Origin: a virus
Length of the DNA stretch: 30,538 bases
Direction: 5' to 3' (one strand)
Virus record (IMG/VR): IMGVR_UViG_3300009182_000222
Coordinates: 1 to 30,538 of that record
A program made the position numbers and the translations under genes. Below are positions 1,398 to 25,266 of this stretch, piece after piece (positions within the stretch are counted from its first letter, which is position 1; each line of letters starts with the position of its first letter). The notes beneath the pieces are model-generated. The model was given only the letters and a program-made list of their open reading frames with translations. It was not told the origin of the DNA and ran no database searches.

Positions 1398-1729
1398 TGC
1401 ACCCAAACCACAAATTTGAAGAAGACCCGTTTTCTCAAACTTCCTCCACTTCCTTTGTAGGTGACAGGATAAGCAACTCAGAATCATTTGATCCGTTGGT
1501 GGATATTCAAAGTCAGATTAATGCTATTGTCCCAACAAACATTGGCCCTTTAACGGCACAAGTTGCAACCAACACTGCAAACATTGCCACCAACACAGCA
1601 AGCATTTCTTCATTAAATACAAATTTAAATACCGCTAATGCCTCTTTTCAAGCGGCGTATGTTGGAGGGGTTCAATTAACTCAAGATTCGGCTGGAACTA
1701 TTCCTCTCTACGTTTGGTCGCACACATAG
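1397..1729 (+). CDS. Small protein with Asn/Thr heptad-like repeat
   Basis: A 110-residue protein. The N-terminal 45 residues are polar. From about residue 50 to 80 there is a repetitive stretch of NTANIATNTASI type with hydrophobic residues at heptad spacing, as in the trimeric coiled-coil stalks of phage fibres. The C-terminus ends in a short Tyr/Trp segment. It begins within the TAATG overlap with the preceding gene. A fibre-stalk or fibre-tip adaptor is a reasonable guess from the repeat, but no family is recognised. Confidence 0.6.
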   Translation: MHPNHKFEEDPFSQTSSTSFVGDRISNSESFDPLVDIQSQINAIVPTNIGPLTAQVATNTANIATNTASISSLNTNLNTANASFQAAYVGGVQLTQDSAGTIPLYVWSHT

Positions 1730-1732
1730 CAC

Positions 1733-1760
1733 TTGACAAAAGATTGCAGATAAAGCAATC
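1733..1760 (+). promoter_or_regulatory. TTGACA box followed by small hairpin before the glycosyltransferase-like gene
   Basis: A perfect TTGACA lies at 1733-1738, 42 bases before the ATG at 1775. GATTGC (1742-1747) and GCAATC (1755-1760) then form a 6-bp hairpin with a 7-base loop. No convincing -10 hexamer sits at 16-18 spacing, so the promoter call is tentative. The hairpin could be an operator or a translation-control element. Confidence 0.35.
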
Positions 1761-1774
1761 AATTGTTCATTGAA

Positions 1775-2794
1775 ATGATTGTTGCAATCTCATACCACGA
1801 TGGGGATAGGGAGTTAATGAAACGTTGGGCTAACCACGTTGAGAAACTTGGCCCTTATCCTAACCACAGCATAATCCTAGCCCCTTCTCACGAAAGCTCA
1901 ACTGAAGGCATTCTGGAGCCATTGCAGAGGTGCTTTGCAAGCGTGGACTTGCAACCTTGCCATCATACAGAAACTGGATGGCCTATTAGTTGCAATATGG
2001 CATTTGAGAGGATTGCTTGGCACGTTTCTATGAGCGTGAAACAACCATTTTTATTCATGGAACCAGATGCAATCCCACTTAAAAGAGAGTGGTTGGATGA
2101 AATTGAGCAGGAATATAAATCTTGCGGTAAGCCATTCATGGGAGACTTTGTTGCAATTAATGGCATCATGCCAAATGGAATAGATCACATGAGTGGAGTT
2201 GCGGTCTATCATTGGGATCTCCATTCTTTAGCTCCAAATATTTTTAGAAATGAAAAAGTTGCTTGGGATATTGCTTCTGCCAAAGACGTTGTTCCAAGAC
2301 TTCACAAAACTAAACTTATTCAGCATGATTGGGTTCCGAATGCCAAATGGCGCAGGGATAAAGTTGATTTTACTTGCGTTAAAATGAACGCTGTAATTTA
2401 TCATCCAGACAAGCTGGGCGTTTTAATGAATGATGGATTATCTCCGAATGATGTGCAGGGAGATCCTGCAATGGGTGGTGACTTGGTTGCTCACAAGCCT
2501 CATGAAACAAAGGAACTCCTAATCAGCACTAAAGAAATTCCATCTGGAACTCCAGAAGCGGAAGAGCAAGCAATTTTAAAAGCCATAAACACACTATCAT
2601 TCCATGCCTCTATTAGCCCCAAAAACAAAAAGAAAATCAAGGAATGGCTCTGCGAAAAAGACCTTAGTTCCAAAACCACGAAAAGGGCCAAGCGTGTTAG
2701 AAGTAAGGTTTTCAAAAATGTGGGCATTAATAAACAACGCTCCAATCTTAGTGGAAGAACACAGATTCCATCAAACTCGAAAGTGGAGGTTTGA
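1775..2794 (+). CDS. Glycosyltransferase-like protein (GT-A-like)
   Basis: About 339 residues from ATG 1775; an in-frame TTG at 1763 is possible but less likely. The N-terminus (MIVAISYHDGDRELM) resembles the first beta-strand and loop of GT-A sugar transferases. A motif around residue 92, FMEPDAIPL, resembles the acidic sugar-nucleotide/metal site of that fold, with Asp replacing the classic DxD. Such proteins are common near phage tail and capsid genes and may glycosylate virion or host surface sugars. The last 64 codons overlap the next gene in another frame and become strongly basic, so the true C-terminus may be functionally unimportant. Family assignment is moderate; substrate is unknown. 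Confidence 0.6.
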   Translation: MIVAISYHDGDRELMKRWANHVEKLGPYPNHSIILAPSHESSTEGILEPLQRCFASVDLQPCHHTETGWPISCNMAFERIAWHVSMSVKQPFLFMEPDAIPLKREWLDEIEQEYKSCGKPFMGDFVAINGIMPNGIDHMSGVAVYHWDLHSLAPNIFRNEKVAWDIASAKDVVPRLHKTKLIQHDWVPNAKWRRDKVDFTCVKMNAVIYHPDKLGVLMNDGLSPNDVQGDPAMGGDLVAHKPHETKELLISTKEIPSGTPEAEEQAILKAINTLSFHASISPKNKKKIKEWLCEKDLSSKTTKRAKRVRSKVFKNVGINKQRSNLSGRTQIPSNSKVEV

Positions 2795-3002
2795 TTTTGC
2801 TCATTTAGAGAGTAAAACTGCAATTGAGATTGAAGGTGGCGTTTGGTCTGGAGGTCGCCACACTAGGGGAGCTGGATATGCTAAAGACGCAGAGAAATAC
2901 AACGAAGCAAACTTTGATGGATGGGCTGTGATTAGACTTGTTGGGCCAATGATTACATACGAGAATTGCGAAAAGATTAAAACTTTGATAGAATCCCGTT
3001 GA
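2604..3002 (+). CDS. Small PD-(D/E)XK-like endonuclease
   Basis: 132 residues. A Lys/Arg-rich N-terminal 30 residues leads to LEVRF, then RWRFDFAH and IEIEGGVWSGGRH at about residues 62-85, and finally a WAVIRL strand. An Asp in a DF.H context followed by an E-I-E strand is the active-site pattern of the DUF559/Vsr-type PD-(D/E)XK fold. The first 190 bases lie inside the end of the glycosyltransferase-like gene in a different frame. The LEVRF segment looks authentic, so I keep the ATG at 2604 rather than the later ATG at 2718. Likely a DNA endonuclease for recombination or host-DNA attack; the exact role is inference. Confidence 0.65.
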   Translation: MPLLAPKTKRKSRNGSAKKTLVPKPRKGPSVLEVRFSKMWALINNAPILVEEHRFHQTRKWRFDFAHLESKTAIEIEGGVWSGGRHTRGAGYAKDAEKYNEANFDGWAVIRLVGPMITYENCEKIKTLIESR

Positions 3003-3014
3003 TTGATTTATATT
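2985..3014 (+). promoter_or_regulatory. Candidate sigma70 promoter for the capsid gene
   Basis: TTGATA (2985-2990), an 18-base spacer, and TATATT (3009-3014); each hexamer matches its consensus at five of six positions. The predicted start near 3021 is followed at once by the structured leader and then the probable major capsid gene, which shows codon use of a highly expressed gene. Confidence 0.5.
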
Positions 3015-23461: not shown

Positions 23462-23692
23462 ATGAAAGTAGACTACATTTGTAAAAACGAGGAGTGTGAA
23501 CATGAATTTGAAGTCTCATTCTCACCAGAGCAACCAGCATCAGGACAATACGGCCCCGTAGAACTCTATGACCCCGGACAAGACGCAGAGGTAGACCCCG
23601 GTGAGTGTCCTAGATGTGGGCAGGACGTTGACCTTGAGGATGTAACCGCCGAGTGCGAGCCAGATCAGGATGATTACGAGTGCGAAGTATGA
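23462..23692 (+). CDS. Small acidic zinc-ribbon protein
   Basis: 76 residues from ATG 23462, preceded by the A/C-rich leader AAAAACAACCACGAAC; a longer frame from 23390 would overlap the upstream gene. YICKNEECEHEF near the N-terminus and ECPRCGQDVD at about 49-58 provide two Cys pairs for a zinc ribbon. The rest is rich in Asp and Glu. A zinc-binding adaptor is a fair inference; its partner is unknown. Confidence 0.6.
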   Translation: MKVDYICKNEECEHEFEVSFSPEQPASGQYGPVELYDPGQDAEVDPGECPRCGQDVDLEDVTAECEPDQDDYECEV

Positions 23693-23733
23693 ACAAGAGA
23701 CTGATCTTAACTGAAGCCGCATACAACTTGTAA

Positions 23734-24486
23734 ATGAATGAGTTACACCTATTTGCAGGAGTCGGGGGAGGAATCCTCGGTGGAATGCTTCTCGGACATA
23801 CCACAGTCTGTGCTGTCGAGCTTGAACCATATTGCCGACGAGTCTTGTTGCAACGCCAGCGAGATGGAATCTTGCCAAAGTTCCCAATTTGGGATGATGT
23901 CTGCACATTCGACGGAACACTTTGGAAGGGAAAGGTCGATGTCGTTGCAGGGGGATTCCCATGCCAAGACTTGTCAATTGCAAATCCAAGAGGAAAAGGA
24001 TTGGACGGAGAGCGTTCTGGACTTTGGACTGAACAAGCAAGAATTATTGGCGAAATACGACCCAAATACGCATTCATTGAAAACTCGCCAAGGCTTACTG
24101 TGGGAGGAGGGGTACGAGTCATTGCGAATCTTGCCAAAATGGGGTATGATTGTGCGTGGGGAATTATGGGAAGCAGAGATGTTGGACTTCCCGTCAAGAG
24201 AGACAGAATCTGGATTCTTGCCAGCACCAGTAGCAAGCGATGGAAGACATCACGGCAAGGAGAAGTGGATAAAAAACAGCCGATCAAAAAGAAAAGAGAC
24301 TGGAAGATCAGCACCGACAGAGAAAATAACTTACGCATATTACGAAGCCGATATTGCCCCGAAATACTTTCCAGAGATTTCCGAGGAGATGATGAGCTGG
24401 CCTCAAGGATGGACAGACTTACGGCGATTGGAAATGGACAAAATGCAGTTTTGGCGGCAACAGCATTCAGACTTCTTTCACAATAG
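23734..24486 (+). CDS. DNA cytosine-C5 methyltransferase
   Basis: 250 residues. Motif I LHLFAGVGGGILGG (4-17) binds SAM, and motif IV GGFPCQD (73-79) carries the catalytic Cys77. Motif VI is ENSPR (116-120), motif VIII VKRDRIW (154-160), and motifs IX/X are RMDRLTAIGNGQ (225-236). Its target-recognition region, residues about 165-222, is short and Lys/Arg-rich, so the enzyme is shorter than usual 300-plus residue members. It probably methylates phage DNA for protection. A second long frame (23738-24502) covers nearly the whole gene. No partner restriction enzyme is seen. Confidence 0.85.
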   Translation: MNELHLFAGVGGGILGGMLLGHTTVCAVELEPYCRRVLLQRQRDGILPKFPIWDDVCTFDGTLWKGKVDVVAGGFPCQDLSIANPRGKGLDGERSGLWTEQARIIGEIRPKYAFIENSPRLTVGGGVRVIANLAKMGYDCAWGIMGSRDVGLPVKRDRIWILASTSSKRWKTSRQGEVDKKQPIKKKRDWKISTDRENNLRILRSRYCPEILSRDFRGDDELASRMDRLTAIGNGQNAVLAATAFRLLSQ

Positions 24487-24502
24487 CAATACAAACCTAT
24501 GA
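23738..24502 (+). CDS. Long alternate frame over the methyltransferase gene, possible overlapping gene
   Basis: 254 residues starting from the second ATG of ATGAATGAG, in the +1 frame relative to the methyltransferase. Ser/Glu/Cys-rich N-terminus, then KYDPNTHSLKTRQ, LPKWGMIVRGELWEAEMLD and a late MMSWPQGWTDLR, all with ordinary protein composition. The stop overlaps the nuclease ATG (ATGA at 24499-24502), whereas the methyltransferase stops 13 bases earlier. That junction is what a real gene would show. The frame could still be a by-product of conserved methyltransferase motifs and codon bias. No function is assigned. Confidence 0.45.
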   Translation: MSYTYLQESGEESSVECFSDIPQSVLSSLNHIADESCCNASEMESCQSSQFGMMSAHSTEHFGRERSMSLQGDSHAKTCQLQIQEEKDWTESVLDFGLNKQELLAKYDPNTHSLKTRQGLLWEEGYESLRILPKWGMIVRGELWEAEMLDFPSRETESGFLPAPVASDGRHHGKEKWIKNSRSKRKETGRSAPTEKITYAYYEADIAPKYFPEISEEMMSWPQGWTDLRRLEMDKMQFWRQQHSDFFHNSNTNL

Positions 24503-25266
24503 AATACACAACCTATAACGGCGACCGCCCAAACTTGGATTGGACTCCTCCAACAAAAACAACTTATAAAAATATGGAAAAAACAAAACTGATAAAAGAC
24601 GCCCCGCACCAGAAATACTTTTCTGAGGACGGCACACAACTCGCAGGAGGTTCTACCATCTGCAAAATCGGAGATGATCCAGCAGGGCTTCTCTACTGGG
24701 CTTGGGATTTAGGCAGGCAAGGCAAGGACTTCCGCAAGGAGCGAGGCACTGCCGCAAACATTGGAACCATAGCCCACTTCATGATTGAATGTATGCTGAA
24801 CGAGCAAGTGGCGGATCTTTCTGATTTCGATCAGGCTGACATTGATAAGGCTCTGGTATGCTACTCAAAGTTTCTCGATTGGTGGAATGAGCAGAGCCTT
24901 AAAGTTGTAAAGACTGAGATTCAGCTTGTGAACGAGCTTTATAAATACGGGGGAACAATTGATCTAATCGCCATTAGCGAGAATGGTGAATATATTCTGC
25001 TTGATTTCAAAACCAGCAAGAAGATTAGTGAGTCATATTGGAGGCAACTGGCTGGCTATGCAGAGCTTTGGAATTACAACAATCTCGGTTGCAAGATCGT
25101 TAATCATTGCATCGTGAGGATTGGCAAGGAAGAAGAAGGGGACTTTGAGGCAGTGTGGAGGGATGATCTATCTGGCTACTGGGAGACATTCAAGGCGCAA
25201 GTGAAGGTGTGGTGGGCTATCAAGAACGAGAAGCCTGTTAAGGTGAAGAAGGAGAAAAAGAAATGA
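24499..25266 (+). CDS. RecB/Cas4-like PD-(D/E)XK nuclease
   Basis: 255 residues from ATG 24499; ATG 24574 (residue 26), which follows an A/C-rich leader, may be the true start. The nuclease core has IGTIAHFMIE (88-97, His93), YGGTIDLIA (150-158, Asp155), YILLDFKTSK (165-174, Asp169 and Lys171) and YWRQLAGYAEL (180-190, the motif with conserved Gln183 and Tyr187). This is the Cas4/RecB exonuclease arrangement, which pairs with annealing proteins such as ERF in phage recombination. No four-Cys cluster is seen, so it may lack the Fe-S site of many Cas4 proteins. Confidence 0.82.
   Translation: MKYTTYNGDRPNLDWTPPTKTTYKNMEKTKLIKDAPHQKYFSEDGTQLAGGSTICKIGDDPAGLLYWAWDLGRQGKDFRKERGTAANIGTIAHFMIECMLNEQVADLSDFDQADIDKALVCYSKFLDWWNEQSLKVVKTEIQLVNELYKYGGTIDLIAISENGEYILLDFKTSKKISESYWRQLAGYAELWNYNNLGCKIVNHCIVRIGKEEEGDFEAVWRDDLSGYWETFKAQVKVWWAIKNEKPVKVKKEKKK

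Follow-up and report, generated by a model that had tools for sequence, protein, structure and literature searches.

Nested same-strand reading frames that probably encode one two-polypeptide C5-cytosine methyltransferase in phages

Organization of the locus

The sequence analysed here, referred to throughout as the window, is the 30,538-nt (30.5-kb) virus record IMGVR_UViG_3300009182_000222, and the locus under study occupies positions 23734-24502. Two long plus-strand frames share this locus (Table 1): frame 0 encodes the catalytic polypeptide of a C5-cytosine DNA methyltransferase, hereafter alpha, and frame +1 a second polypeptide, hereafter beta. A preliminary description of this DNA had reported both frames, with starts 4 nt apart in ATGAATGAG, and an ATGA overlap between the second frame and the following gene; the coordinates are exactly as reported, and the TGA of beta, read from the sequence, does overlap the ATG of the next gene. 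In profile searches that gene (24499-25266) hits exonuclease PHROGs and has a weak match to PD-(D/E)XK. Long minus-strand frames had also been noted, and a 299-aa minus-strand ORF is indeed present at 23610-24509, but it is unconserved: the three minus frames are fully open in just 1, 4 and 0 of 67 viral relatives and in 1, 0 and 0 of 74 genome relatives. Because it is not open in relatives, this ORF is ascribed to chance, and the minus-strand ORFs were rejected as genes for want of conservation across both sets.

Table 1. Features of the methyltransferase locus, in window coordinates
Feature	Position	Strand	Remarks
alpha	23734..24486	+	250 aa; catalytic chain of a C5-cytosine DNA methyltransferase, with motifs I-VIII and X
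beta	23738..24502	+	nested +1-frame polypeptide, 254 aa; motif IX-bearing, inferred partner of alpha
double start ATGAATGAG	23734..23742	+	alpha ATG 23734, beta ATG 23738
alpha motif IV PCQ, catalytic Cys77	23959..23967	+	P76, C77 invariant, Q78 near-invariant
beta PxWGMxxxGE, residues 133-142	24134..24163	+	P133 invariant; W135, G136, G141 near-invariant (105 sequences)
alpha motif VIII RDRIWI	24199..24216	+	R156, R158, W160 (near-)invariant
beta LPAPVASD, one PTPxASD copy	24218..24241	+	element repeated in longer relatives
alpha predicted disordered, beta more constrained	24265..24432	+	AF2 residues 178-233, pLDDT ~42; dNN/dNS 0.09-0.13 from alpha codon 165
beta motif IX PEISEEMMSWPQGW	24371..24412	+	family consensus LNPxWxEWLMGWPxGW
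alpha motif X RLTAIGNGQNAVLAATAF	24415..24468	+	R228, G233-Q236 near-invariant; AF2 helix 238-249
ATGA	24499..24502	+	beta stop / start of downstream exonuclease-like gene

The beta ATG is invariant at a site where the Asn codon of alpha would be free to vary. Of 141 genes, 126 have Asn as the second residue of alpha, and every one of those 126 writes it AAT, a codon that makes up just 37-47% of Asn codons elsewhere in these genes; the beta ATG exists because this codon is AAT. The third codon is GAG in 130 of the 136 genes that have Glu there. Relatives that lack an alpha ATG at position 0 (TTAAATGAG and similar) usually have an ATG 12-15 nt upstream and retain the beta ATG, and in L012, which lacks the usual beta ATG, the beta frame is open upstream as far as another ATG. 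No clear Shine-Dalgarno sequence was found in the window, and one is present in only 27 of 67 viral relatives.

The catalytic polypeptide

Alpha satisfies the criteria for a C5-cytosine DNA methyltransferase, namely a match to the Pfam profile PF00145 (E=6.2e-29, 101.9 bits against a cut-off of 22) and a catalytic PCQ at residues 76-78, and it also matches the PHROG profile phrog_363 (E=1e-54). Read in the +1 frame, the bases surrounding the PCQ encode the SHAKT of beta. What alpha lacks in its own chain is motif IX and a target-recognition domain: the Pfam match stops at residue 194, and no motif IX is seen in frame 0, where residues 178-233 are disordered in the AF2 model. The pLDDT of that model is 80-96 in the core, about 42 over residues 178-233 and 95 in the motif X helix. 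Its best match among solved structures is M.HhaI (Z 20.5 over 187 residues), and because the match spans HhaI residues 12-320 yet covers only 187 residues, about 120 HhaI residues, the size of the small domain, are left without a partner.

The +1-frame polypeptide

A profile search of beta returned no significant Pfam or NCBIfam match, but beta does match phrog_1008, as do 52 of 52 beta-family members. The label of this family, 'DNA methyltransferase', hides the fact that its beta members sit in the +1 frame of a methyltransferase gene. Conserved in beta are PxWGMxxxGE, PTPxASD elements within a variable region and, close to the C-terminus, LNPxWxEWLMGWPxGW. A counterpart of the first, TSGMTRNG, is found in the +1 frame of actinophage relatives, and PTPxASD repeats occur both in the +1 frame of relatives and in fused actinophage enzymes. 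AF2 models beta poorly (mean pLDDT 57.7, the C-terminal third being best), fold searches with the model yielded no usable structural match, and comparison of the beta profile with PDB sequences gave a single weak match of doubtful meaning (3nng, E 0.04). No locus with beta and no methyltransferase frame occurs among those examined.

Absence of stops from the +1 frame

Expected numbers of +1 stops were obtained from a null in which synonymous codons are permuted within each methyltransferase gene, with protein and codon usage kept. For the window methyltransferase 5.7 stops are predicted and 0 seen, the stop-free fraction being 0.000 of 300 permutations. Across 133 distinct relatives there are 33 +1 stops against 595 predicted, and 124 genes are stop-free against 1.2 expected. 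That set mixes loci found through either frame; two further sets, one of viral and one of genome relatives, were picked by the methyltransferase frame alone, the genomes being scanned with the methyltransferase alignment. The +1 frame is stop-free in 63 of 66 viral relatives (~0.5 expected; 3 stops against 290) and in 73 of 74 genome relatives (~1.6 expected; 3 stops against 264). Stops in close relatives, named beforehand as an observation that would refute dual coding, are absent from nearly all of them. As a control, the same count was made in an unrelated phage Dcm clade, the relatives of a second methylase in Vibrio phage 1.091.O, where 1100 +1 stops stand against 1116 expected, and the null is thus sound. 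The GC content of the control clade is lower (0.38), but the permutation is matched gene by gene.

The second methylase of Vibrio phage 1.091.O (L002:3652-4563) is a different C5-methyltransferase that lies just downstream of the alpha/beta locus and has no overlapping +1 frame. Rare breaks of the beta frame comprise stops in L015 (codon 143), L079 (codon 125) and L113 (codon 208) and a frameshift in L047, which may be real losses or sequencing errors.

Selection in both frames

Because the wobble base of each alpha codon is the middle base of a beta codon, changes that are silent in alpha alter beta. In pairs at 60-70% protein identity, the third base is identical at 57-58% of fourfold codons of conserved residues, against a value of 36% for the control Dcm clade, 34% for the window lineage terminase and 33% or 28% for random bases; the helicase gave 47%, from four pairs only. 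Normal synonymous variation in the methyltransferase frame, the other observation named beforehand as refuting, is not what is seen, since fourfold sites are strongly constrained.

Single differences were also classed by their effect in both frames in an OLGenie-like count, with the transition weight fixed at 2.5, uncorrected distances and each sequence used at most twice. By this count dNN/dNS is 0.11-0.43 in the alpha/beta family versus 1.0-1.85 in the control clade, and dSN/dSS is 0.23-0.49 versus 1.3-1.5. Not one alpha-silent change that creates a beta stop was seen in any distance bin. Beta is most tightly constrained between alpha codon 165 and the end (dNN/dNS 0.13 in the viral set, 0.09 in the genomes), which is also where alpha is most relaxed. 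Over the first ~70 residues of beta, constraint is weak in the viral set (NN/NS 1.27, CI 0.78-2.45) but evident among the genomes (0.34). All these counts of substitutions are approximate, and the confidence intervals are optimistic because the sequences are related. Both alpha and beta are under purifying selection as proteins. The permutation null, the two-frame substitution counts and the control Dcm clade all back the true dual-coding locus that the preliminary description had entertained, and with an effect this large and a control that behaves in this way, any other conclusion about dual coding is very unlikely.

Fused, split and nested relatives

In 43 actinophage-type loci, namely mycobacteriophage Filuzino gp68 and 42 others, the segment that carries motifs IX and X continues the frame of the catalytic part; in 12 relatives, some of them more than 90% identical over the catalytic part, it lies in the +1 frame. 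In L439, frame 0 stops just past motif VIII, and a +1 ORF holds the PTP elements, motif IX and motif X. Four loci (L396, L416, L419 and L444) share ~91-98% catalytic identity with L367 (Filuzino gp68), yet depart from it as to which frame, in-frame or +1, holds the motif IX segment. Because relatives as close as these differ in the frame of the segment, it is possible that fused and split forms interconvert over short times.

These relatives also bear on the identity of the conserved C-terminal motif of beta. Aligned by hhalign, the beta motif matches motif IX of the fused actinophage methyltransferases with a probability of 96.7% and E=4e-10, over only 27 columns. The motif of the fused enzymes in turn aligns with canonical motif IX, directly before motif X, and the fused relative L428 matches PF00145 profile positions 1-314. 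Because of this alignment and the hhalign match, the existence of fused and +1 relatives, and the fact that phrog_1008 spans both the beta proteins and the C-terminal part of the fused enzymes, computation assigns motif IX to beta. Alpha lacks it.

Comparison with known systems

The closest known enzyme is M.EcoHK31I (YGGCCR), a heterodimer in which the large subunit carries motifs I-VIII and X and the small subunit motif IX (Lee, Kam & Shaw 1995, as described in PMC3404938). Alpha and beta share this division, with motifs I-VIII and X but no IX in alpha and motif IX in a second polypeptide; the likeness is one of motif division and not of compared sequences. As general background, the small subunit of M.EcoHK31I is also read from another frame within the large-subunit gene, and beta is itself nested in another frame of alpha. 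There are differences as well. M.EcoHK31I comes from a bacterial restriction-modification system and its predicted recognition domain is placed in the large subunit (PMC3404938), whereas alpha and beta are found in phages, with a beta start that follows that of alpha by 4 nt and a beta frame that extends over the entire gene. A second divided enzyme, M.AquI, has its catalytic motifs in one polypeptide and part of the variable region plus motif IX in the other (PMC3404938). Its motif X lies in the small subunit whereas that of the window lies in alpha, so that the window does not follow the AquI-type split; the actinophage relatives L439 and L416 do follow it, with motifs I-VIII followed by IX-X in a +1 ORF.

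Another system with an extra ORF in a different frame of a phage methylase gene is the ShiLan domain, a hidden HNH endonuclease (PMC11855218). ShiLan is a mobile HNH insertion, whereas the window locus has neither HNH nor insertion: no HNH match for beta was found in Pfam, and the family is open over its full length without an insertion.

Elsewhere in the sample, an HNH-endonuclease-like insertion does occur in the C-terminal part of two methyltransferase/beta loci (L035:2310-2729 and L111:2044-2900, limits approximate), where it shifts both frames equally, like an intron or a ShiLan-like insertion. A functional layout with motif X in the beta frame had been considered for L035, L111 and L122 and was dropped, the first two having this insertion and L122 one shift by which the two frames are displaced together.

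Proposed mechanism and alternatives

The locus is, with high probability, a same-strand nested gene pair encoding one two-polypeptide C5-cytosine methyltransferase, although ribosome-profiling, proteomics and methylation data were lacking for this analysis. The function of the pair is inferred from its anatomy and from precedent, and the translation of beta, its assembly with alpha, the need of both for methylation and protection from host restriction are inferences as well. Weighing against the proposal are the poor model of beta without a structural match, the weak constraint on its first ~70 residues in the viral set, the lack of a clear Shine-Dalgarno sequence in the window and in most viral relatives, and the shortness of the hhalign match. 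In the proposed mechanism, which the preliminary description did not offer and the relatives suggest, ribosomes would start at either of two AUGs 4 nt apart. Translation in frame 0 would yield alpha, a SAM-binding and catalytic core (motifs I-VIII and X) in which a disordered stretch replaces the target-recognition domain and motif IX, and translation in frame +1 would yield beta, whose second half would supply the motif IX segment (LNPxWxEWLMGWPxGW) and the adjoining variable PTP region. Beta would then bind to alpha and so complete its DNA-binding small domain, the part played in M.EcoHK31I by the motif IX subunit, and the completed alpha-beta enzyme would let the phage methylate its own DNA.

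A more ambitious proposal combines an old, widespread dual-coding family of tailed phages and prophages, with three interchangeable layouts (fused in frame, overlapping split and fully nested), with a separate function for the N-terminal half of beta, a half that has no in-frame counterpart in the fused enzymes. As a combination this remains speculative and rather unlikely.

Overprinted viral genes often encode accessory proteins, and beta might be a real protein of this kind, such as an anti-restriction protein or a methylase regulator, instead of a methyltransferase subunit. Most of beta has no structural match, which together with the unpaired N-terminal half would suit such a role; however, the C-terminal motif is the motif IX known from the fused C5-methyltransferases, the very parts missing from alpha are present in beta, and beta alone is found at none of the loci examined, leaving an accessory role improbable. 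Still harder to sustain, with only a slight chance of being correct, is programmed ribosomal frameshifting that fuses the N-terminal part of alpha to the C-terminal part of beta with no separately initiated beta. Many actinophage enzymes do have the same segments covalently fused in frame, but the beta frame is both open and under selection ahead of any shift site that could be of use, it has its own invariant ATG 4 nt past that of alpha, and a nested fusion would drop motif X, which is kept in frame 0. That no second protein exists, the +1 frame being open merely because methyltransferase motifs and codon bias exclude stops, was the other explanation in the preliminary description, is the usual one for long overlapping ORFs and has in its favour that +1 stops require particular Leu/Ile/Val/Met codon pairs, but it is refuted in practice and retains almost no probability, as permutations keeping protein and codon usage predict ~3-6 stops in most genes, the control clade conforms to them, and neither the fourfold constraint nor dNN/dNS is explicable by codon bias alone.

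Distribution and annotation

The arrangement of a methyltransferase with an overlapping +1 ORF is kept in well over 100 sampled phages and prophages. The +1 ORF occurs in phages of Vibrio, Pseudomonas, Acinetobacter, Salmonella, Klebsiella, Stenotrophomonas, Bacteroides, Paenibacillus, Lacticaseibacillus, Rhodobacter and Microcystis and in mycobacterial phages, in Leptospira and Pseudomonas plasmid records, and in genome loci of many Proteobacteria, Akkermansia, Verrucomicrobia and Anaerolineales. Enterobacterial genomes hold a second alpha subfamily (YYNEIDP...), also accompanied by the +1 ORF; because these loci were found through beta, they are not an unbiased sample.

To our knowledge, few fully nested pairs of same-strand genes have been accepted in tailed phages. 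By design, gene callers keep only one gene of such a pair. The present case is a ~760-bp nested pair with strong two-frame selection, in phages and prophages of Proteobacteria, Akkermansia, Bacteroides, Leptospira, Paenibacillus, Lacticaseibacillus and mycobacteria. No report of this overlap in phages was found in the open-licence literature, and the new features are its wide occurrence among phages, the double start spaced by 4 nt and the frame layouts that can replace one another. Should beta be the motif IX subunit, a methyltransferase produced from alpha alone would seem inactive, and methylation assignments in phages would have to be revised. The existence of fused, split and nested relatives also allows one to trace how the enzyme came to be divided between two reading frames.

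Annotation of the locus is inconsistent, with alpha only, beta only (as in Vibrio phages 1.291.O and 1.236.O) or both recorded, and usually one gene shown. Both ORFs were annotated by the depositors of Paenibacillus phages, among them Diva ('g49 internal gene'), and of E. coli phage K1G (ORF31/ORF30). One contig, L111, carries tandem methyltransferase/beta pairs at 299-1440 and 1469-3010, of which the upstream pair is the more divergent.
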